NCBI GenBank assembly: GCA_019339365.1
Contig: CP079859.1
Coordinates: 3,348,001-3,412,000, forward strand
Reading direction: 5' to 3'
Length of the DNA: 64,000 bases
DNA from: Vibrio neptunius
GTDB taxonomy: Bacteria; Pseudomonadota; Gammaproteobacteria; Enterobacterales; Vibrionaceae
The position numbers and the translations under genes were made by a program. Below are positions 50,469 through 62,078 of the stretch, piece by piece (position 1 is the stretch's first letter; every line of letters begins with the position of its first letter). Below the pieces are notes generated by a model. It was not told the DNA's origin, did no database searches, and worked only from the letters and a program-made list of their open reading frames with translations.

Positions 50469-52601
50469 TTATGCGTCTGTTGCTGGTTTCTCTTCAGAAA
50501 CCGCTTCTTCAGTCTTTTCAACTGCTTCTTTCATGCTTAGACGTACACGGCCCTGACGGTCGATTTCAAGGACTTTAACTTGAACTTCTTGACCTTCAGC
50601 TAGGTAGTCAGACACTTTTTCAACACGCTTGTCTGCGATTTGAGAGATGTGTACTAGGCCATCTTTACCTGGCAGGATAGTTACGAATGCACCAAAGTCT
50701 GCTAGACGCGCTACTTTACCTGTGTAGATGCGGCCAACTTCAACTTCTGCCGTGATCTCTTCGATACGACGGATTGCTTCTTTCGCAGCTGTACCTTCAG
50801 TTGCAGCAATCTTGATTGTACCGTCGTCTTCGATTTCGATAGTTGTACCCGTCTCTTCAGTAAGAGCACGGATAACTGCACCACCTTTACCGATAACGTC
50901 TTTGATCTTCTCAGCGCTGATCTTCATTGTGTGAATACGCGGAGCGAACTCAGAGATATCTTCACGAGCGCCAGAGATAGCTTCATCCATTACAGATAGG
51001 ATGTGCTTACGTGCACCTTGAGCTTGGTTAAGCGCAATTTGCATGATCTCTTTAGTGATACCTTCGATTTTGATATCCATCTGAAGTGCAGTGATACCAG
51101 TGTTAGTACCTGCTACTTTGAAGTCCATGTCACCTAGGTGGTCTTCGTCACCCAGGATGTCAGAAAGAACAACGAAATCATCGCCTTCTTTAACAAGACC
51201 CATTGCGATACCCGCAACAGAAGACTTGATTGGCACACCAGCATCCATAAGCGCTAGAGACGTACCACATACAGAAGCCATTGAAGAAGAGCCGTTAGAT
51301 TCAGTGATTTCTGATACCACACGTACTGTGTATGGGAACTCGTCTACAGATGGCATTACTGCAGCAATACCACGCTTAGCTAGTTTGCCATGGCCGATTT
51401 CACGACGCTTAGGAGAACCTACAAAACCAGTCTCACCTACACAGTATGGAGGGAAGTTGTAGTGCAGTAGGAAGTGATCTTTACGCTCACCCGTTAGCTC
51501 GTCGATGATTTGAGCATCACGCTGCGTACCTAGAGTCGCAGTTACAAGCGCCTGAGTTTCACCTCGAGTGAATAGCGATGAACCGTGAGTACGTGGAAGA
51601 ACACCAGTGCGTACGTCTAGCGCACGAACCATATCTTTTTCACGACCGTCGATACGTGGGTTACCAGCGATGATGCTGCGACGTACCACTGTCTTCTCTA
51701 GATCGTGGAAGATAGTGTGGATTTCTTTTGTGTTTGCTTCTGGATCTTCAGCAAGAAGAACTTCGTTTACTTCACCAGCAATCTCGTGGATGCGGTCGTA
51801 ACGAGCCATCTTCTCAGTGATTTGGTAAGCTTCAACTAGCTTAGCTTCAGCAAGTTCAGCGATCTTGTTTACAAGCGTTGTGTTCTCTTCTGGAGCAACC
51901 CAATCCCAAGCAGGAGTAGCCACTTCCGCTTTGAATTCGTTGATCGCATTGATCACAACTTGCTGTTGATCGTGACCGTAAACAACAGCAGATAGCATCT
52001 CTTCTTCAGTTAGGTTGTCAGCTTCTGACTCAACCATAAGAACAGCGCCTTCAGTACCCGCAACAACTAGGTCTAGTTTAGATGTTTCTAGTTCAGTGGT
52101 GCTTGGGTTAAGAACAAGTTGACCGTCGATGTGACCAACACGTGCCGCACCGATAGGACCGTTGAACGGGATACCAGAAATAGCAAGTGCCGCTGACGTA
52201 CCAATCATAGTTACGATGTCAGGTTGAACGTCTGGGTTTACAGACACAACTGTCGCGATAACTTGAACTTCGTTTTTGAATGCATCTGGGAAAAGTGGAC
52301 GGATTGGACGGTCGATTAGACGAGCCGTTAGCGTTTCACCTTCAGAAGGGCGACCTTCACGTTTAAAGAAACCACCAGGGATTTTACCCGCAGCGTAAGT
52401 GCGCTCTTGGTAGTTAACCGTTAGAGGGAAGAAGTCTTGACCTTCTACCGCTTCTTTTTTACCTACAACAGATACGAATACCGCAGTATCATCCATTGTT
52501 ACCATAACTGCTGCTGTAGCTTGACGTGCAATAACGCCAGTTTCTAGAGTAACTGTGTGGTTACCGTACTGGAACGTTTTAACAACTGGTTTTTCGAACA
52601 T
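50469..52601 (-). CDS. pnp: Polynucleotide phosphorylase
   Basis: A trimeric 3'-5' phosphorolytic exoribonuclease, part of the RNA degradosome. The 710 residues hold two RNase PH domains ([31 protein letters not shown]), a KH domain ([20 protein letters not shown]) and an S1 domain ([31 protein letters not shown]). ATG 52601 with AAGGA six bases upstream gives the family start. A hairpin in the leader (GCAGGCT 52659-52665 / AGCCTTGC 52682-52689) may be the RNase III/PNP control element known from E. coli. rpsO, its usual upstream neighbour, is displaced 9 kb away. Confidence 0.96.
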
Positions 52602-53009
52602 GAAAATTCCTTGTTGGATTTTGAGTGAATCCACCACTACCAATCGCGACTAGTGAAAGCAGGCTACCCCACCTCCCATTGAGCCTTGCCAAAAGAAAGA
52701 CCAATAGAAAGTTAACCAACTTTTAATAGCCGCGACCATTTGGTCGACTTACGTGACTGTAGTTAGTGGACAAAAATGCCGCTATTCAGAAACCTATCGC
52801 AAGGTTACTAAAATAGCGGCACGATTATAGACTAGTTCGAGGGGTAAATCCCGTAGAATTTATTGAAACTGTTCAACGCAAGAGGGACCGCAAAGGGCGA
52901 ATATCTGAAAGCGAAATAATAACCATCATTATTGCTTTTCATACATCACATCAACGCAACTTTAAGAATTTTTATCTTAGTCTCATTTAAAACCACACCA
53001 CTCATACCC
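52602..53009. other. pnp leader/promoter and left edge of the accessory island
   Basis: The part near pnp holds its leader hairpin. A 9-bp stem GCCGCTATT (52778-52786) / AATAGCGGC (52812-52820) with a T tail on the minus strand probably terminates the island operon. From about 52840 to 53009 I see no gene and no direct repeat that would mark an insertion site. Confidence 0.5.
52774..52820 (-). terminator. Probable terminator of the LRR-BRCT operon
   Basis: Nine-base-pair stem with a long loop, followed on the minus strand by ATTTTTG. It insulates pnp from the upstream island genes. Confidence 0.55.
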
Positions 53010-55854
53010 TTAAACGTCCTCTAGAATTTCACAGTCTGGGAACGCATCGCGGAATTTTTGCGGAGCTCTAATCGACTCATAGCCCTGCTCTGCGTCATAG
53101 CCCCAGCGGTACAAAGGCTCTGCCGCACGACGCAAGTCAAGCTTCTTCAGTTTTTTTAGCTTGAACAGCACCTTGGGAAACTCAGTAAAGTGGTTAAAGG
53201 AGAGATCCAGCTCCTCCAACTCAGTCAGCTCAGCCAATTTCGGCGGCAACTTTTCCAAATGGTTGAAGCTCAAGTTGAACTTCTTCACCTGCAGGTAACG
53301 TTCGAAATTAGCAGGCAACGCATTCAAGTAGGAGTTGTGCAGGTCAAGCTCAGTGATCCGCGTCTGCTCGGGCAGCGCTTGTGGCAAGCGGGTCTTCGGC
53401 TTACCCAGCTCAAAGCTGTTCTGCATGTAGATGTCTGGAGAGCCATGGCAGTTGATCAAACGCTCCTCATCGGCATCTTTCACCATCAGTTCAAAGCCAC
53501 AGGCTCTGTTCCAGTTGAGGCACTCACCTTCCACGAACGAGGTGGGTGATGGCTTGGCGGCGCTCACACTCCTCTTTCTGGGTCAGCAGCCACAACAGCC
53601 CCTCGCCATAACGGTCAAAATAGGCTTTGGAGAAATCGATACACAGAGGACGCCCCCAACGTTTGGTCAACCCCTTAAGCTTCTTAAACATCGGCCCTTC
53701 ACCGGTTGGGTTGCCCTCCCAGTTGAGGCCTCGCAGGTCCGACTCGAAGAAGATGCGATCTTTTACCGCCAACTGGAACAGGTCGTCCCCCTTACCGGCC
53801 AGCAATTGCTGAATCGATTTGCGCAGAGCCTTATCGCTGGTGGTTTTCAGAATCAGGAATAGTGGCATCCACATCACTTCGGTGACACCCCCTTGAGTTA
53901 ACATCTCCACCGCCACTTGATGGGAGGCTTCATCTGGAGAGTTCAGCATGGTCATCACGGTATCAACCATGCCGCTGTCTACGGCTTGCTCCTGCTGCAA
54001 AAACTGCGGCGCCGCCTGCTCAAACCACTGACTTAGGGCAGTGTCGTCGATCAGCAGATGATGCTGTAAATCCAACAGTTCGGTCTGCTTCGGATTGGCG
54101 CCGACCAACACGTGGGTCACGCTGTCGTCCAATGTCTTGCAGATGCTAAATCCCAGCTCCTCAGCCTTGGCCTTGAGCTCAGTGACCTTAAACCCACTCT
54201 TACCGCACACAAACAGCACTGTATCGCTGCCTAGGGCTCGACGAGTTAACGCCTGCTCAGCGTTGGCTCTCAGCCACGCGTGGGCGTGTTTCTTAAATGG
54301 AGAGTATTTCGCTTCGAGGAAGGTCAGGTGGAAACGACCATCCATCTCGGGCAAATCCCTTGGCTTTGGCGCATGATACAGTTGTTGCCAGTAGGTTTGG
54401 CGCTGCTCAAGAGTCAGGGGAGCATTCAGCAAAATCCGCCGCTGTTTGTTCAGAGCTTCACTGCGGGCCACCTGATCGTAGATGCCAAACTCCACCTCAA
54501 TCTCTGGAGGCATGCACATCAAGAAGTCGGTGCGATCGCCGCTTTGTGCCGTCAGGTTGAGAACCAGACGCTTCAGCGATGGTGCGGTCAGCAGTTGTTC
54601 CAATGCCGGCAGTGCGGTGCATGGGCCATGATGGCTAAACTGCTCGATTCGAATCTCGGTAACGCCAGTCATGGCGCTCAGATCCCCAAGCTGCTCGGTA
54701 GGGCCATTGCTCACTCGCAATCGAGTGAGGCCAGAATGCTGACGCAGCGTTAACGGCAGCTCGGCATCGGTAAAACCTTCCAGCTGCAGGTATTCCAAAT
54801 TAGTTAGGGCGCTAAGCACCTTGGCCTCGCCCAAATCTCCCGAGTCACGCAGCTCCAATTTCGTCAGCTGTGGTGAGTTTTTCAGGCCGTCCAGTTGTGC
54901 AAATGGCACACCGGTGGCAAACAGATGATCCAAGTGCGGCAAGTTAAGATCGCCAACTACCCCTTTGCCCTCTGAGAACAGATAGATAGAGGCTAAGGAT
55001 TGCAGCGGCGCCACCAGTTCCGTCAGGTTATAACTGGCGTTGTGAGGCAGGAAGATCAAACGCTCAGCGCTGCCCAGCTGGCAAAACAGATCGCTGGCAA
55101 CCTCTGTGCCATTTCGCCCCACATTGAGGTGCAGCTCCTTCACTGATTTAGCTCGAATCAAACCACCGGGAGCCACAATTAACTTATCGGCCTCCAGTCG
55201 CATCTCATCAAGTTCAGCGTTTCCAGCATCGATAATTCGCTCTATCTGCATCTGACAGTGAGGAGAGATAGAGATCTTCTTGATTGAGTCGGGCAGCAGC
55301 AGTTGCTCCACCTGCATCGTATAAGACTCACCATTGTAATGGCGACAATAGAGGTGAAGCTCATTCAGCTCCTTGGCCCCAGAGAGGTTTAGGGCCAGTC
55401 GATCCACTTCATCGACCCGAAGATGTAACGTTTGGAGGCGGCTTCCTTCAGGCAGCTCCAGAACCAAAGAGCCCTTCTCCACCTCAAGGTAGATCTCGGT
55501 TAGCGCCTGACAGTGTTTGAGATAACCCAATTGGTTGGCTTGGGTAACCACCGCTCCCCGAATCGCCCTAAGGTTTTTAACCATCTCCGGCTCAACGTCG
55601 GAGAGCTCCAGCGGATTGGTTTCGCAGTTGAGAATCTTGAGATTCGGAAACGCACTGAACATCTCGGCATCAATCGGGCGCAGAGGCTCCAGATAGCTAC
55701 CAAAATAGAGCTGTTCAACATTAGGGAAAGCTCGGCCGATCTTGTTCCAATCAGGGGCAACGTCACTCACGCGGTAGCGCAGATTGGTGACGTCCGGGTG
55801 GACCTGTTTCAACTGTTCCAGATCATACTCATACAAAGAAGCTTTTTTTGTCAT
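53010..55854 (-). CDS. LRR-BRCT-LRR protein 2 of the island, frame broken by one base
   Basis: Two overlapping frames, 55854-53524 and 53567-53010, align end to end with the intact upstream paralogue, so they are one gene of about 947 residues with one extra base near 53533-53541. N-terminal half: degenerate leucine-rich segments (LTKLELRDSGDLGEAKVLSALTNLEYLQLEG). About 540-605: BRCT-like (VLFVCGKSGFKVTELKAKAEELGF, DDSVTHVLVG). About 635-740: HEAT-like helices (SPDEASHQVAVEMLTQGG). C-terminus: canonical LRRs (ELDLSFNHFTEFPKVLFKLKKLKKLDLRRA). No signal peptide is seen. Twenty-one bases separate it from the paralogue. GC content is well above the flanks. Function unknown; the neighbours suggest a MoxR-VWA-associated system. 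Confidence 0.8.
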
Positions 55855-55875
55855 CGAAAAGTGTATCCTAACTCA

Positions 55876-58683
55876 TTAATCCTGAAGCACTTCGCAGTCT
55901 GGGCAGGCTTCTAAAAATGCCTGCGGTACCTGCAATTTGTGATAGTTCGAACCATAATCCTCATCCAGCCCAGGACGGGTGGCTCGGCGAAAATCCAGCT
56001 TCTTCAGCCAAGGCATCTTCAACAACACCTTGGGAAATTCACGGAAGTGGTTAAAGGAGAGGTCCAGCTCCTCAAGCTGAGTGAACTTAGTCATCGCGCT
56101 TGGCAGGGAGTCCAACATGTTGTGGGCCAAGCTTAAGCTGGTGATCTCGGTAAATTGGTCGGCACCTTTTGGCAGCGTACTCAATAAGCAGTTGCCCAGA
56201 TCCAGACGACGAATAGTACGCCCGCTGGCCAACTCCTTTGGAATCTCGATTTTCACTGCGCCCAGTAGGTTATCGTTATTGAGATAGAACATCGGATGCC
56301 AGTGCAGGTTAATCTGGGATTCCTTGTCCCAGAACTCCTGAATCTGATCCATCCCCATGCCTCGACGCCAGTTAAGACAATCACCTTCAACCAGTGATTC
56401 CAGCATTGACAAACGCAGCTCAGCTGGGGTCTTTTGCAGCATCACGTAGATAAGGCCTTCGCCATAACGCCTAAAGAACAGCTGCGCAAACTCCATGCAC
56501 AGCACGTCGCCCCACTTTCTACGCTGCTTCTTAAGCTTATCTACCATCACGCCCTGCCCCTTGAGGTTGCCGTAATCGTCGAGGCCACGGCAGTTGTGGA
56601 ACAGGATGCGATCGTTCACTGCCAGTTGAAAAGCTTCATCCCCCATGCCCGCCAGCAGATGTTTGATCTGCTTACGAAAGCCATTGTCGGCGGTGGTTTT
56701 CAAAATCAGGAACAGCGGCAGACGCATCGCTTCGGTCACCCCACCCTGTTCCAACATCTGTACGGCAACCTTGTGGGACGCTTCATCGGGAGAGGCCAAC
56801 ATCTCCAATACACTGGCCTCCATCGATTCGCCGCCCTCCTGCTGCAGAAACTTAGGCGCATTGACTTCGAAGCACTGCTGCAGCACCGAATCATTAATGA
56901 TGGCATGGCGCTCAAGGTCGAAACTATCGGTGTTCTTAGGAGCACTGCCCAGCAAAATGTGAGTGACCTTGTCATCCAGTTTCTTGCTGAGACTAAAGCC
57001 CACCTCCTCGGCTTTAGCTTTGAGTTCAGTGGCTTTAAAGCCACTGCGTCCGGAAACAAACAAAATACTGTCAGCACCAAAAGGTCGCTGCTGCTGATTG
57101 TGCTGAGCCAATTGGCTTAGCCACGTTTTGTGCTGCGCCTTAAAGCGGTTGTACTTAGCCGCCATCATCGTCAAATGGAAATTGGCCGGCATCGTTGGCA
57201 GTTCAGCGGGCTTATACACAGGAGCCAAGATATTCAGGTAGCCCAAAGACTCCTCATCACTTAAGTGAGAGCGCTTCAAGATCTGCCATTCCGCCGCCAA
57301 TTTTTCGTTGCTGATATCCAGCTCCAATTCCGCATTTAAGTTTATCCAGGCGGGAGCAAACTGCTTCAGTTCGATGTCTAGACGCAGCGATTTTAGAGCG
57401 GGAATGGTGACCAAGTCCTGCTGTTCTGGCAGTGACGCTTGCTCATGACGCCAAGGCTGAATCCACACGTCAGCAAGAGCCGTCATCTGGCTCATGTCCC
57501 CAAGTCGAGGCAAGGTAACTGACAGCAAATTAAGACGCTCAATAGTGCTACTGCTCAGTACCGACGTAGGTAACTGATCCAGTTCCCCTCCTCGCAGGGT
57601 CAAACTGGTAAGCGTCGGCAGCTCTGGCATCTGCGACACTTTGCCCTTTAGTAAAAAATTACAGTCGTTCAGTTTCGGGCTGTAAGCCAACCAATCCAGT
57701 TGATCGCCGTTCAAACCACAAATCCACGCCCGAGTCAGCTCTGGCAGTACCAACTCATTGGCTTTCTCTAGCGCCCCACTGGCATTGCTGTAATTAAACT
57801 CCTCCACCACCACTCCATGAGGCAGCAGTAGTTCTGGGATCTGGGTCTGTTCGCACTTGAGTTCAAACTTAGTAGCTCGAGTCAGCTTGGCAAATAGAGC
57901 CGGAGGCAAGGGCGGTGTCGGCTCGGTTAAGGTCAGGGTAAGTCGGTTCAACTCCTTAAGCTCGCCGAGAAGGTCCTCCGCAAGCTCAGCGGAGCCCAAA
58001 TTCAGAGTTAGCTGGTTTAGGCTTTGGTTGGCACCCAAGACAGCGCCGGGCAGTTTTCCGACACAATAGGCATCTAAGGTGAACTCTTGCAGTGAACTTG
58101 GCAAACAAAGCTGATTCACAGAAAGAGCTGCTGGGCCATCATCATAGTAATCCAGTTGCCCCAGAACCACAGAGGTCAGTTGGCTGCTCTCAAGGTCACA
58201 ACTGAGCGCCCTCACCTGAGGCTCAAGCCCCACCTTAAGTACCTTCAAAGAGGATTGGTCACTGATGGCAACCTTAACGCTGGACTGGTAGAGGCGCACT
58301 GTCAACTCAGTCAACTTAGGCAGGCTTGAGAGCAACGCCAAATCCTCATCTCGGCATTGGCTCAGTTTCAGTTTTTCCAAATTGACCAGATGCTCCGGAT
58401 TAACGTTCTCCAACCTCACCGACAGCTTATCGCGACTTCGAATCGGCATCTCCAGTTCAGACAAGTTGGGGAACTGCTGGAAAAACTCCGCATTGATCTC
58501 TTTGCGACCATCGACGCGGCCAAGATCCTCAAAAGTCAGCTTACGAAGTCGAGGGAAGGCTCGGCTGAGCTGCTGCCAACTCTCCATCGGCTCATCACTA
58601 TCATAAAACAAATGCTCGACATCAAGGTGTACCGATTCCAACAGGGAGTCGTGATTGTAATCTTCCAGTTCCACACTCTGCAT
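55876..58683 (-). CDS. LRR-BRCT-LRR protein 1 of the island
   Basis: An intact 935-residue paralogue of the next gene. ATG 58683 has a strong AAGGAGG four bases upstream. N-terminal leucine-rich segments run to about 460 (LPKLTELTVRLYQ, LPTLTSLTLRGGELDQLP). The BRCT-like domain is at about 533-605 (SILFVSGRSGFKATELKAKAEEVGFSL, DDKVTHILLG). The HEAT-like part is at about 640-740 (SPDEASHKVAVQMLEQGG). Canonical LRRs close the protein (TSLSLAHNMLDSLPSAMTKFTQLEELDLSFNHFREFP). BRCT domains usually bind phosphopeptides or DNA ends, LRRs bind proteins; a sensor or scaffold role is inferred. First gene of the minus-strand operon, divergent from the VWA-MoxR pair. Confidence 0.82.
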   Translation of the reverse strand: MQSVELEDYNHDSLLESVHLDVEHLFYDSDEPMESWQQLSRAFPRLRKLTFEDLGRVDGRKEINAEFFQQFPNLSELEMPIRSRDKLSVRLENVNPEHLVNLEKLKLSQCRDEDLALLSSLPKLTELTVRLYQSSVKVAISDQSSLKVLKVGLEPQVRALSCDLESSQLTSVVLGQLDYYDDGPAALSVNQLCLPSSLQEFTLDAYCVGKLPGAVLGANQSLNQLTLNLGSAELAEDLLGELKELNRLTLTLTEPTPPLPPALFAKLTRATKFELKCEQTQIPELLLPHGVVVEEFNYSNASGALEKANELVLPELTRAWICGLNGDQLDWLAYSPKLNDCNFLLKGKVSQMPELPTLTSLTLRGGELDQLPTSVLSSSTIERLNLLSVTLPRLGDMSQMTALADVWIQPWRHEQASLPEQQDLVTIPALKSLRLDIELKQFAPAWINLNAELELDISNEKLAAEWQILKRSHLSDEESLGYLNILAPVYKPAELPTMPANFHLTMMAAKYNRFKAQHKTWLSQLAQHNQQQRPFGADSILFVSGRSGFKATELKAKAEEVGFSLSKKLDDKVTHILLGSAPKNTDSFDLERHAIINDSVLQQCFEVNAPKFLQQEGGESMEASVLEMLASPDEASHKVAVQMLEQGGVTEAMRLPLFLILKTTADNGFRKQIKHLLAGMGDEAFQLAVNDRILFHNCRGLDDYGNLKGQGVMVDKLKKQRRKWGDVLCMEFAQLFFRRYGEGLIYVMLQKTPAELRLSMLESLVEGDCLNWRRGMGMDQIQEFWDKESQINLHWHPMFYLNNDNLLGAVKIEIPKELASGRTIRRLDLGNCLLSTLPKGADQFTEITSLSLAHNMLDSLPSAMTKFTQLEELDLSFNHFREFPKVLLKMPWLKKLDFRRATRPGLDEDYGSNYHKLQVPQAFLEACPDCEVLQD

Positions 58684-59070
58684 GGAGCCTCCTTACGGTT
58701 CTGTTCTGGGGGGATGCGACAAAGGCACGGCAGCAAGGGTGACCAACGAGAATCACCTCTAAAATTCGATATAGGTTCGACTTCGAAGCGCTGGGTAGCA
58801 GCAGAAATTGATTCGCTCAGTCGAGCATGGTGGATAGGTTTCCAGATCGGTACTGCGAGGTTTTGTCTGTGTACGATTACTGCGCGTACCGGGCTTTACG
58901 TTAAAATCACCAGTCATCGCTTTCAACGAAATGCTCCTAAAGCCCTTACTATTAAAATCGAACGTGGATTGACCACCTGAGCATTATATGGATAATTCAT
59001 TTTAAATCATATAGTTAATCTGGATAACGCTATAAACAACGCCAATCTGTCACGAATCCTAGTCAAACTG
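58684..59070. promoter_or_regulatory. Divergent promoter region of the island
   Basis: These 387 bases separate the two island operons. Apart from the strong ribosome-binding site of the minus operon I see no operator palindrome. The frame of the plus-strand VWA gene is open back to 58996 without ATG, so its true start may lie here. Confidence 0.45.
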
Positions 59071-60262
59071 ATGCTCAATGAGCCCTTTTACGGCCATTAT
59101 CTGAGTAGTTTTCATAAGGCTACCCTAGAGCGAGGCGACGAAGAAACCGCTCCTCTTGAGATAAAACTAAAAGAAAACAGTAACATTCAGTTCATATGCC
59201 ACTTTGCACCTTGGGGCGCATTGAGTGAGCCTCAACAGCTGGGGGCACTGAAACATGAAGCCCTGCACTTGGTCTTAGGGCATCCCTTCGGCCGCCACCA
59301 ATACGCAGACTCAGCCCGTTTTGATCTGGCGGCAGATCTGGTGGTGAATCAATATCTCAGCCCTGACCAATTGGCCCCAAATGCCCCAACTATCGAACTG
59401 GTAAACCAGTGGCTGACCGGATTAGGCGCTCCAGAGTTAGAGCCCCATCACGAACTGGGTTACTACTATCAACGACTGCCCCAAAGCAACCAATTCCCGA
59501 GCTATCAGGGTTTTAACGGCGCAGGGCTTGGGCACCAAAGCTGGAACGCACTGGGCCAGCTCGATGAAGCCCATCGCTCTCTGGTGAGTCAGCAGCTAGA
59601 CAGTAAGCTGGAGGAAAGCGCTCAACGCACCGAGCAGGTAAACGCCAGAGCGCGAGGCCTTTTGCCCGCCAGCGTACTAGAAGCGCTTACTCAGGCCATT
59701 GCTCGTCGTCGCCCTACAGTTAACTGGCGACGTATACTAAGATTATTCGCCTCTAGCGCTCGGCGCACCTCAGTAAAAAACACCCTACGACGACCTTCTA
59801 AACGCTACGGTACCACTCCCGGAACCCGCATTCAGCCTCATCAACACATTCTGGTCGCTATAGATACTTCGGCCAGTGTCGATGACCAACAGCTCAAGCG
59901 TTTTTTTTGAGGAGCTACACCATATCTGGCGTGCCGGCGCCGAACTCACCATCGTTGAATGCGATACCGAGATTAAAAGTCAATACCGTTACCGTGGTGA
60001 ACCGCCGAAAGCGATCAGTGGACGCGGAGGCACCTGCTTTGACGCACCCATTGAAATGGCCAATCGACTGCGGGTTGATGCCACCATCTACTTCACCGAC
60101 GGTGATGCGCCGCTGCCGGAGATTTCGGCGCGGGCACCTATTCTGTGGCTTATCCACAACGACAGAACTTCGATAAAAAACACACCTCTTCGCCAATGCG
60201 GTCGGGTGATCCCCATGGCCGATACCAATACCATCACCGAAACCAGCACGAGACATTCATGA
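59071..60262 (+). CDS. DUF2201-type metallopeptidase-like/VWA protein, frame broken by one base
   Basis: The N-terminal part has HEALHLVLGH (H62, E63, H66, H71 from ATG 59071), a zinc-peptidase HExxHxxxGH motif, and FDLAADLVVNQYL, both typical of the DUF2201 N-terminus. The C-terminal VWA-like domain has the MIDAS DTSAS (AIDTSASVDD), a Thr in GRGGTCFD and YFTDGDAPLP. The frame breaks at a T8 run (59901-59908); with seven T it reads LKRFFEELHHIW and runs to TGA 60262, about 397 residues. Homology seems to extend upstream (LSRILVKLMLNEPFYG), so the start is uncertain. The stop overlaps the next ATG as ATGA. VWA partners of MoxR ATPases usually receive or recruit their substrates. Confidence 0.8.
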
Positions 60263-61365
60263 CACATAGCCACAACTACAGCTACTACGGTTTAACCTGC
60301 CAAGCGCCGGAAGTGCGCAGCTTCATCGAGCATCTGCTACCTAAATCAGGTCAGCGCAGCGTTCCTGTCTGCATCTGGGGCCGTCACGGCATAGGTAAAA
60401 CCCAGATGGTGGAGCAGATCGCCAAAGAGAGAGGAATGCAGTGGCGCACCATTGCTCCAGCTCAGTTTGAGGAGATGGGGGATCTGTTGGGAATGCCTCA
60501 GGTAACCCAAAATGAACAGGGAGAAAACGTAACTCAATTTGCCGCTCCCCACTGGGTGCCGACCGAACCCGGACCAGGTATCCTACTGATTGATGACGTT
60601 AACCGCGCCGACGAGCGCATCCTTCGAGGCATCATGCAGCTGCTGCAAAACCATGAACTCATCAGCTGGGCACTGCCTGAAGGCTGGCAAATTGTGCTTA
60701 CCGCAAACCCAGATGGTGGCGATTACTCGGTCACGCCAATGGACGACGCCATGCTGACCCGCATGATGCACATCACCATGGAGTTTGATGCGAAAGCGTG
60801 GGCATTGTGGGCAGAAGGTGCCAACATTGACCCTAGAGGCATCGACTTTGTGTTGACTTACCCCGAGCTGGTCAGCGGCGAGCGCACCACCCCTCGCTCT
60901 CTGGTGCAGTTCTTCCAAGCCATTGCGCCAATTGAGGATCTTAAGTCGCATCTGCCACTAGTGAACATTCTCGCTCGCTCCTGTTTAGATGAAACCACCT
61001 GCGCCGCCTTCATCGCCTTTGTGGAACAGAACCTGAGTAAGCTGGTTTCGCCTCAGGCGATGGTGGAGGCCAAATCCTTCGATAAGGAGATCGCTCCGCA
61101 AATTGAGCGCATCGCCGGCGGTGCCGCACCACGAATAGACATTCTGGCCACTCTGTGTACCCGCCTGTACCACTATCTGAAAGTCAGTGGCGTTAAGCTT
61201 AAACCAGCTCAAATTGGCAATGTGCAGGCGTTTCTTAAGCTAGGCTTCCTACCAAACGATCTGCGTCTTGGACTGATGCAGGATCTGATGAACAGCGGCA
61301 ATGCTTCGGTGAAAGGGGTATTAGCAGATGCGGAACTGGCTAAGCAGTTCCTAAGTAACGCTTAA
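60259..61365 (+). CDS. MoxR-type AAA+ ATPase of the island
   Basis: A 368-residue AAA+ protein: Walker A GRHGIGKTQMV, Walker B GILLIDDVNRAD, sensor 1 VLTANPDGGDYSV, arginine region DAMLTRMMHI. This is the MoxR/RavA-like branch, which pairs with VWA proteins as remodelling chaperones. ATG 60259 overlaps the stop of the VWA gene (ATGA), so translation is coupled. An earlier in-frame ATG at 60145 lies inside that gene and is less likely. No membrane segments. A strong terminator follows, then rpsO on the other strand. Confidence 0.88.
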   Translation: MTHSHNYSYYGLTCQAPEVRSFIEHLLPKSGQRSVPVCIWGRHGIGKTQMVEQIAKERGMQWRTIAPAQFEEMGDLLGMPQVTQNEQGENVTQFAAPHWVPTEPGPGILLIDDVNRADERILRGIMQLLQNHELISWALPEGWQIVLTANPDGGDYSVTPMDDAMLTRMMHITMEFDAKAWALWAEGANIDPRGIDFVLTYPELVSGERTTPRSLVQFFQAIAPIEDLKSHLPLVNILARSCLDETTCAAFIAFVEQNLSKLVSPQAMVEAKSFDKEIAPQIERIAGGAAPRIDILATLCTRLYHYLKVSGVKLKPAQIGNVQAFLKLGFLPNDLRLGLMQDLMNSGNASVKGVLADAELAKQFLSNA

Positions 61366-61387
61366 CCTTGTTGCCACTTCCCTAAAG

Positions 61388-61423
61388 AAAAATGCCAGTT
61401 CGCTTAGCGAACTGGCATTTTTA
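61388..61423 (+). terminator. Terminator of the VWA-MoxR operon
   Basis: AAATGCCAGTTCGCT/AGCGAACTGGCATTT, about 15 bp, followed by TTATTT. Marks the right edge of the island genes. Confidence 0.85.
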
Positions 61424-61496
61424 TTTAAGGCGATTGATCACTTACTTTTCAGCAAGGATATAACAAATAGAACTGTCAATTTATGAATTTCAGATA

Positions 61497-61550: not shown

Positions 61551-61820
61551 TTAGCGACGTAGGCCTAGACGCTTGATTAGGTCGTGGTAACGATCTAGAT
61601 CTTTACCTTTAAGGTAATCTAGAAGCTTACGACGACGAGAAACCATACGTAGAAGACCACGACGGCTGTGGTGATCGCCTTTATGCGCTTTGAAGTGACC
61701 TTGTAGGTGGTTGATAGAAGCTGTAAGTAGAGCTACTTGTACTTCTGGTGAACCAGTGTCGCCTTCGCCACGTGCGTAATCTGCAACGATTGTTGCTTTA
61801 GTTTCTGCATTCAGAGACAT
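61551..61820 (-). CDS. rpsO: 30S ribosomal protein S15
   Basis: The 89-residue S15 ([33 protein letters not shown]...[11 protein letters not shown]) binds the central domain of 16S rRNA and represses its own translation in E. coli. It is normally followed directly by pnp on the same strand. Here an 8.6-kb accessory segment with its own terminators lies between, so rpsO and pnp must be transcribed separately. Confidence 0.97.
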
Positions 61821-61969
61821 AATTCTCTCCTAATAAGAGTAGGTTAAACGTTGTGCCAGCCAATCTCTGATTCAGCCGACACGAGGAGCGCGAATTATAG
61901 GGGATGTACATAGGTTAAGCAATAGGTAATTGCGCGGGATACGGGAGGCGGGAGCGGACTTCGTCCTAT

Positions 61970-62078
61970 GGAAAACTGGAAAACTGGAAAACTGGAAAAC
62001 TGGAAAACTGGAAAACTGGAAAACTGGAAAACTGGAAAACTGGAAAACTGGAAAACTGGAAAACTGGAAAACTGGAAA
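61970..62078. repeat. 8-bp minisatellite (GGAAAACT), about 13.6 copies
   Basis: Perfect tandem repetition of GGAAAACT over 109 bases with no substitution that I can see. It ends in GGAAAG. Because 8 is not a multiple of 3, all frames read the same eight-residue period (LENWKTGK), which explains spurious open frames. Confidence 0.95.

Follow-up and report, generated by a model that had tools for sequence, protein, structure and literature searches.

An accessory island of four genes separates pnp from rpsO in the window, a 64,000-nucleotide stretch of Vibrio neptunius DNA (assembly GCA_019339365.1, contig CP079859.1, positions 3,348,001 to 3,412,000). Two of its genes encode tandem paralogues in which leucine-rich repeat (LRR) arms enclose a BRCT domain and a helical domain. 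The other two encode a metallopeptidase-like protein with a VWA domain and a MoxR-type AAA+ ATPase. These three kinds of genes keep together in Bacteroidota and Pseudomonadota, and the LRR-BRCT partner is a third component not found among the published MoxR-vWA types in the papers searched. Judging from sequence, we read the island, with a probability of roughly 0.45, as a horizontally moving AAA+ remodelling or protease machine that is guided by a BRCT-LRR adaptor and probably acts on proteins at DNA. One LRR-BRCT copy and the VWA gene are frame-broken in this assembly. Features are listed in Table 1.

Table 1. Features of the island and its borders (positions are those of the window)
Feature	Position	Strand	Remarks
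First LRR-BRCT-helical-LRR paralogue, 935 aa, intact	55876..58683	-	open frame, Pfam
N-terminal LRR arm of first paralogue, residues 1-500	57184..58683	-	fastest-evolving part
BRCT domain of first paralogue, about residues 535-610	56854..57081	-	
Helical (HEAT/ARM-like) domain after BRCT, about residues 618-762	56398..56832	-	slowest-evolving part; model
C-terminal LRR arm, about residues 813-898	55990..56247	-	Pfam LRR_8 and LRR_4
Second LRR-BRCT-helical-LRR paralogue, broken at ~53.54 kb	53010..55854	-	open reading frames 53524-55854 (776 aa) and 53010-53567 (185 aa)
Metallopeptidase-like (DUF2201_N) and VWA (DUF2201) gene, broken at ~59.90 kb	59071..60262	+	open reading frames 59071-59910 (279 aa) and 59876-60262 (128 aa)
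HExxH motif (HEALH)	59254..59268	+	HxxxH in 37/37 aligned relatives
VWA MIDAS motif DxSxS	59863..59877	+	37/37 aligned relatives
MoxR-type AAA+ ATPase, 368 aa	60259..61365	+	Pfam AAA_5
Transferred unit shared with Ferrimonas aestuarii (L004)	52983..61431	.	91.3% DNA identity, blastn, 8,472 columns
Accessory island, between pnp leader and rpsO terminator	52762..61495	.	~8.7 kb, aligned with 7 empty-site relatives
Divergent intergenic region between the gene pairs	58684..59070	.	95% mean column identity with L001-L004, Ferrimonas included
Hairpin, then T run, after LRR-BRCT pair	52770..52830	-	-26.1 kcal/mol, z -6.0
Terminator-like hairpin after VWA-MoxR pair	61380..61428	+	-25.3 kcal/mol, z -8.7
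pnp	50469-52643		flanks island
rpsO	61551-61820		flanks island

Domain architecture of the four proteins

A preliminary description of this DNA had read the large proteins as two paralogues of about 940 residues with the order LRR-BRCT-HEAT-LRR. The LRR and BRCT domains were recovered by Pfam, but one of the two frames is split and no HEAT match was found by Pfam in these proteins. The BRCT scores (22.8 and 24.2 bits; cut-off 21.3) and some of the LRR scores are close to the Pfam cut-offs, and NCBIfam gave LRR-family matches to the C-terminal arm only far below its cut-off. The BRCT domain is backed by both the sequence profile and the fold, and it resembles most closely those of DNA ligase and RFC. 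In contrast to DNA ligase (LigA) and RFC1, the island protein has no ligase or clamp-loader domain, and its BRCT domain shares one chain with a helical domain and LRR arms. The predicted model has an all-helical array after the BRCT domain (model residues 119-263; predicted local distance difference test score, pLDDT, 90.6). Foldseek with the BRCT-helical core returned nothing at E 0.001 or better; the fold comparisons barely covered the helical part and give no evidence for a new fold.

Regional identity was lowest in the N-terminal LRR arm, which changes fastest, and highest in the helical core. The ratio of nonsynonymous to synonymous substitution rates (dN/dS) of the intact paralogue was 0.10-0.18 against four relatives, and that of its helical core was 0-0.02 in three of these comparisons and 0.12 in the fourth. 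Ten partner proteins scanned with Pfam contained LRR and BRCT, and one also contained WGR and TPR. The Flavobacterium limi partner (L069:3528-6998) combines WGR, TPR, LRR, BRCT and LRR in a single chain. As many as five core genes, two of those partial, were found in one locus. Plasmid records yielded only remote LRR matches to the first LRR-BRCT protein, in two records.

The second gene pair had been described as a coupled DUF2201/VWA gene and MoxR gene. DUF2201 and AAA_5 were indeed assigned by Pfam, but the VWA gene is frame-split and its N-terminal HExxH metallopeptidase-like domain had been overlooked. The DUF2201_N match (49.3 bits; cut-off 23.2) indicates that this domain is fused to the VWA domain. 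The second residue of the motif is glutamate in 32 of the 37 aligned relatives. In all 37, the protein ends shortly past the VWA domain, in agreement with the predicted model, and a C-terminal effector is absent. The metallopeptidase-like part was also barely covered by the fold comparisons, with no evidence for a new fold. For MoxR, the best match to a solved structure was midasin (E 1.1e-13). Among named phages, MoxR matched 257 records, all below 60% identity, and the best places listed were 23-26% identical.

Both split genes are intact in four related loci (L001-L004), and each differs in length by one base from its counterpart in G100, the second genome of the species. At least four open reading frames (ORFs) outside the island, near 24.0, 28.6, 39.2 and 49.8 kb, are likewise shortened by one-base differences, and each is longer in G100. 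Since the relatives are intact and similar breaks affect ORFs elsewhere in the window, an assembly (indel) error is likely, as the simplest explanation of the frame breaks. A four-base tandem duplication had been considered as the cause of the break in the second LRR gene; this was wrong, as alignment gives a one-base length difference. Two breaks in four genes could also be taken to mean that the module is decaying cargo, a functionless relic in this strain. The similarly broken ORFs outside the island, the intact relatives and the dN/dS values make this very unlikely.

Linkage, transfer and viral relatives

The best 80 of 200 relatives of MoxR in GTDB genomes were kept as loci and were searched with a profile built up from the large protein's BRCT-helical core. 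The core profile matched 39 of the 49 loci with a VWA neighbour, 35 in full and four partially (L008, L023, L024 and L077). It matched two of the 31 loci without a VWA neighbour, and both of those contigs start at MoxR. The association of core and VWA has a Fisher p of 4.6e-11, although the loci are not independent. Within Vibrio, MoxR was found in four of 227 genomes, including that of the window, and the core was found in the same four. The earlier proposal that the LRR-BRCT and VWA-MoxR genes belong together was upheld by both results. The four genes are thus far from general among vibrios. In this survey, which outside Gammaproteobacteria was anchored on MoxR and there blind to partners lacking it, no LRR-BRCT gene was clearly seen in the absence of the pair. 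The 31 loci without a VWA neighbour (e.g. L018, L022 and L027) include many from Saprospiraceae and their relatives and lack the core, save for the two contigs cut at MoxR.

Sampling was also extended to 369 Gammaproteobacteria. The VWA family was present in 109 (E 1e-8 or better), and all five of the 109 loci that were fetched contained MoxR. The helical core was found only in the window genome (E 1e-6 or better). Of 345 genomes within the order, two had a core match; the second was weak (38 bits) and lay in an LRR protein, with the pair absent from the 11 kb of contig read.

The view of the island as accessory and horizontally acquired was borne out by empty sites, identity with Ferrimonas and base composition. 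The unit shared with Ferrimonas aestuarii is 91.3% identical in DNA sequence, compared to only 73% for the PNPase of that genome and the window, and thus a recent transfer between Ferrimonas and Vibrio is indicated. The G+C fraction of the region is 0.536 versus 0.530 for its flanks in Ferrimonas aestuarii and 0.514-0.518 versus 0.462-0.465 in three Vibrio loci. This mismatch in Vibrio and match in Ferrimonas aestuarii hint that Vibrio was the recipient. However, the region is also G+C-richer than its flanks in Photobacterium (L005, 0.482 versus 0.427) and Ferrimonas balearica (L007, 0.632 versus 0.585), and therefore part of the difference is inherent to the genes. This weakens the argument from distinct base use in the preliminary description, whose hand counts (35/60 and 20/60) were exact and whose contrast appears at full scale as 51.7% G+C in the island versus 44.8% in the rest of the window.

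The pair was also found on viral contigs, where 80 loci from 110 VWA relatives were kept. The VWA profile matched all 80 and the MoxR profile 73. Three of the 80 (L165, L166 and L167) encode a protein of 299 or 344 aa that contains the core's helical motif (E 6e-8 to 4e-5 in a search of 3764 ORFs); L166 and L167, which gave the same protein scores, are probably one virus. When the 207 ORFs of 15 viral loci were compared by hhalign, these short partners took the top three ranks, with probabilities of 91.8, 78.8 and 78.8, and the next ORF reached 17.4. A profile of eight relatives of the L167 protein gave a probability of 88 against the core, compared to 0.4 for an unrelated control. The reverse search with this profile gave only four matches among 1114 genes, all of them core proteins and all weak (E 0.0008-0.006). 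The short-partner gene abuts MoxR in L167 and lies ~2 kb upstream of the VWA gene in L165. The MoxR-VWA pair of L164 adjoins the gene for an LRR protein of 1367 aa, whose BRCT match is below threshold. Viral rows require four changes in the VWA tree, and some sit among bacterial rows. Similar-looking genes with a CxxxCxxC stretch, which we take to be radical-SAM-like, immediately precede the viral VWA gene in L165 (4632-5507, 292 aa) and L171 (5090-5941, 284 aa).

A MoxR and metallopeptidase-vWA pair is known from group 2.2 jumbo phages, where a role in virion assembly was proposed (Iyer et al. 2021, PMC7824862). By description, the two share an N-terminal metallopeptidase domain on vWA and an adjacent MoxR. 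The passage on the phage pair names no third partner; the short partner with the helical motif is present here in the three viral loci given above. Among 138 neighbours in 15 viral loci, the top families were thymidylate synthase, HNH endonuclease, DNA ligase, PhoH, exonuclease, primase, Sak4 and DnaB, with two or three members each as raw counts without a control. Of the 25 listed among 105 viral neighbour families, four lack a description and none of the rest is annotated as a virion protein. These families therefore favour DNA metabolism over the virion assembly proposed for the jumbo-phage pair (PMC7824862).

The insertion site between pnp and rpsO

In an alignment with seven empty sites, homology stops at 52761 and restarts at 61495/61496. 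An island of about 8.6 kb that splits rpsO from pnp had been described, and its length is adjusted only slightly by these borders. Since the insert sits between the rpsO terminator and the pnp leader, both genes retain their own signals. The LRR pair is co-directional with pnp, the VWA-MoxR pair is convergent on rpsO, and the two pairs are divergent from each other. rpsO was detected in all 227 Vibrio genomes searched. Thirty rpsO loci, the window genome and 29 others chosen by most similar rpsO, were fetched, and the gap was 231-339 bp in 26 of them, as expected from the claim that the two genes are normally adjacent. Two of the remaining four carry the island (one being the window genome) and two carry other cargo. 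The three fetched Vibrio loci with the module at the same place are from V. neptunius S2394 (G100), V. sp. LaRot3 and V. intestinalis.

The interval is also enlarged in two other Vibrio genomes, to ~5.6 kb (L121 1193-6487, G222) and ~7.4 kb (L122, G223). The first contains a gene whose 1269-aa product has PAAR and VasX_N domains like those of type VI secretion cargo; two ORFs, of 239 and 234 aa, come after it. The rpsO-pnp interval may be a recurrent insertion site. Upstream of rpsO, at 61969-62078, are 13.8 perfect copies of the 8-base unit TGGAAAAC. No tandem copies of TGGAAAAC were seen in the ten related loci checked, including three from the second genome of the species.

Each operon had been credited with its own terminator, and strong hairpins do follow both gene pairs, although a simple pattern-based terminator scan listed neither. 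Control of the divergent promoter by LexA was considered and is unsupported: a single one-mismatch site (58867-58882) was found there, and the window total is 24 such sites versus 25.8 in shuffles. A short LexA scan of other gammaproteobacterial loci gave different single-mismatch sites in L007 and L010 and none in L005, L006 and L009.

Possible function and relation to known systems

MoxR-vWA ternary conflict systems have VMAP, iSTAND, FtsH or beta-propeller proteins as third components (Kaur et al. 2020, PMC7159879), and iSTAND2 and TERNS3 types appear in PMC8195603. The island resembles the former in that adjacent MoxR AAA+ and vWA genes are co-encoded with a large variable third protein, and in its patchy distribution. 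It differs in the LRR-BRCT-helical-LRR make-up of the third protein and in a vWA protein with an N-terminal metallopeptidase-like domain and no C-terminal effector. No VMAP, STAND, FtsH or beta-propeller domain was detected in the window proteins and ten partner proteins in scans with Pfam rather than the authors' own profiles. In the main text of PMC7159879, the words BRCT and leucine are absent and LRR stands solely within a reference title. The earlier remark that no described type with LRR-BRCT effectors was known agrees with these domain results. A literature search, whose coverage left most subscription-journal papers and bioRxiv preprints outside, found no paper that combines BRCT, leucine-rich repeat and MoxR; MoxR and leucine-rich repeat are mentioned together in PMC8195603 and PMC11090510.

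In the mechanism that we propose, the VWA protein would dock on the MoxR ring in the manner of other MoxR-VWA pairs, and the BRCT-helical core of the large protein would be the adaptor that couples substrates to this engine. The fast-changing N-terminal LRR arm would select the substrate, with tandem paralogues widening the repertoire. The engine would then remodel or cleave proteins, most likely those assembled on DNA, such as replication, repair or phage nucleoprotein complexes. Conflict with phages or other mobile DNA may be the likeliest use for a mobile module whose recognition arms vary. Support falls from the adaptor role of the large protein, through substrate choice by the LRR arm and a target on DNA, to the conflict role, which is the least supported step. 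This reading is suggested by the domain content, the linkage of VWA and core, and the presence of MoxR and core in the same four of 227 Vibrio genomes. It is also favoured by the ligase/RFC-like BRCT domain, the WGR relative, the fast LRR arm and slow helical core, and the dN/dS values. Further support comes from the Ferrimonas-Vibrio transfer, the viral neighbour families and the short viral partners with the helical motif.

Several points weigh against it. BRCT domains also have DNA-independent ligands, namely proteins and phosphopeptides, and only one of the seven BRCT matches among the ten partner proteins reaches the Pfam cut-off. The glutamate of HExxH is replaced by glutamine in 5 of 37 relatives, and therefore proteolysis is not universal. 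The VWA-MoxR pair is common without the LRR-BRCT partner, and 10 of the 49 VWA loci lack the core; one of these (L014) ends 98 bp past MoxR, and the nine others have more room. Core-carrying rows do not form one clade in the VWA tree but require at least nine changes, four of them forced by well-supported branches, and thus partners were gained or lost more than once. Lastly, the PADLOC matches among neighbours, five families in 60 gammaproteobacterial proteins and 46 in 127 others, were obtained without a control.

Another explanation is an anti-phage or anti-mobile-element system, in which an invader protein would be recognized by the LRR arms, MoxR-VWA would act as the switch, and either the metallopeptidase domain or release of the BRCT-LRR protein would serve as the effector. 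The architecture parallels the published ternary conflict systems (PMC7159879), and the module is mobile and patchy, with duplicated proteins that bear a variable LRR arm, up to five core genes in one locus and caspase genes near some loci. PADLOC, however, did not match the LRR-BRCT and VWA ORFs and gave MoxR only one weak AAA-model match (12 bits, E 0.02), its neighbour matches had no control, and viral contigs themselves carry the MoxR-VWA pair. Caspase genes made up 8 of the 718 genes in VWA loci and 1 of the 396 in the loci lacking VWA, and they come from few independent loci. These neighbourhood scans do not establish defence, and we consider this explanation possible but doubtful. Caspase-family genes occur within MoxR loci L011, L020, L031, L037, L053 and L072, plus L030, which has no VWA; L011 has three, one of them just downstream of an LRR-BRCT gene. 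Given the few independent loci, a caspase partnership is a lead only.

The ligase/RFC-like BRCT domain, the WGR domain in one relative, and the replication and recombination families among viral neighbours would also fit a module for DNA damage or replication stress. Here, the BRCT adaptor would target the metallopeptidase machine to broken or nicked DNA or to stalled complexes, where the machine would clear bound or cross-linked protein. The divergent region has no convincing LexA box, and a core repair role leaves carriage by so few Vibrio genomes unexplained, which makes this rather unlikely. An assembly chaperone without proteolysis is unlikely as well. In that case, the pair would mature a protein complex like NorQ-NorD or RavA-ViaA, with the LRR-BRCT proteins as clients or scaffolds. 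To our knowledge, those MoxR-VWA pairs have no metallopeptidase-like domain and no LRR-BRCT partner. No obvious recurring client gene was seen among the first 25 of 159 and the first 25 of 105 neighbour families listed, and the HExxH glutamate is kept in most relatives.

A broader form of the adaptor-guided reading, which we regard as distinctly speculative and improbable, is that a DNA-directed AAA+ metalloprotease of three parts is common to bacteria and phages. A BRCT-helical adaptor would bring MoxR-VWA to a DNA-bound protein, and the bacterial LRR arms would be an interchangeable recognition array against invading replication complexes. Some phages would keep a stripped adaptor in their own replication module.

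The island would represent a further class of third component for MoxR-vWA systems, in which a DNA-repair-type domain is joined to eukaryote-style LRR arms. The class is seen in Bacteroidota, Proteobacteria and, in reduced form, on viral contigs. The shared helical motif is a handle for finding the partner in viruses, and the adaptor-guided reading provides a testable claim on what MoxR and metallopeptidase-vWA pairs, which are frequent on viral contigs, act on.

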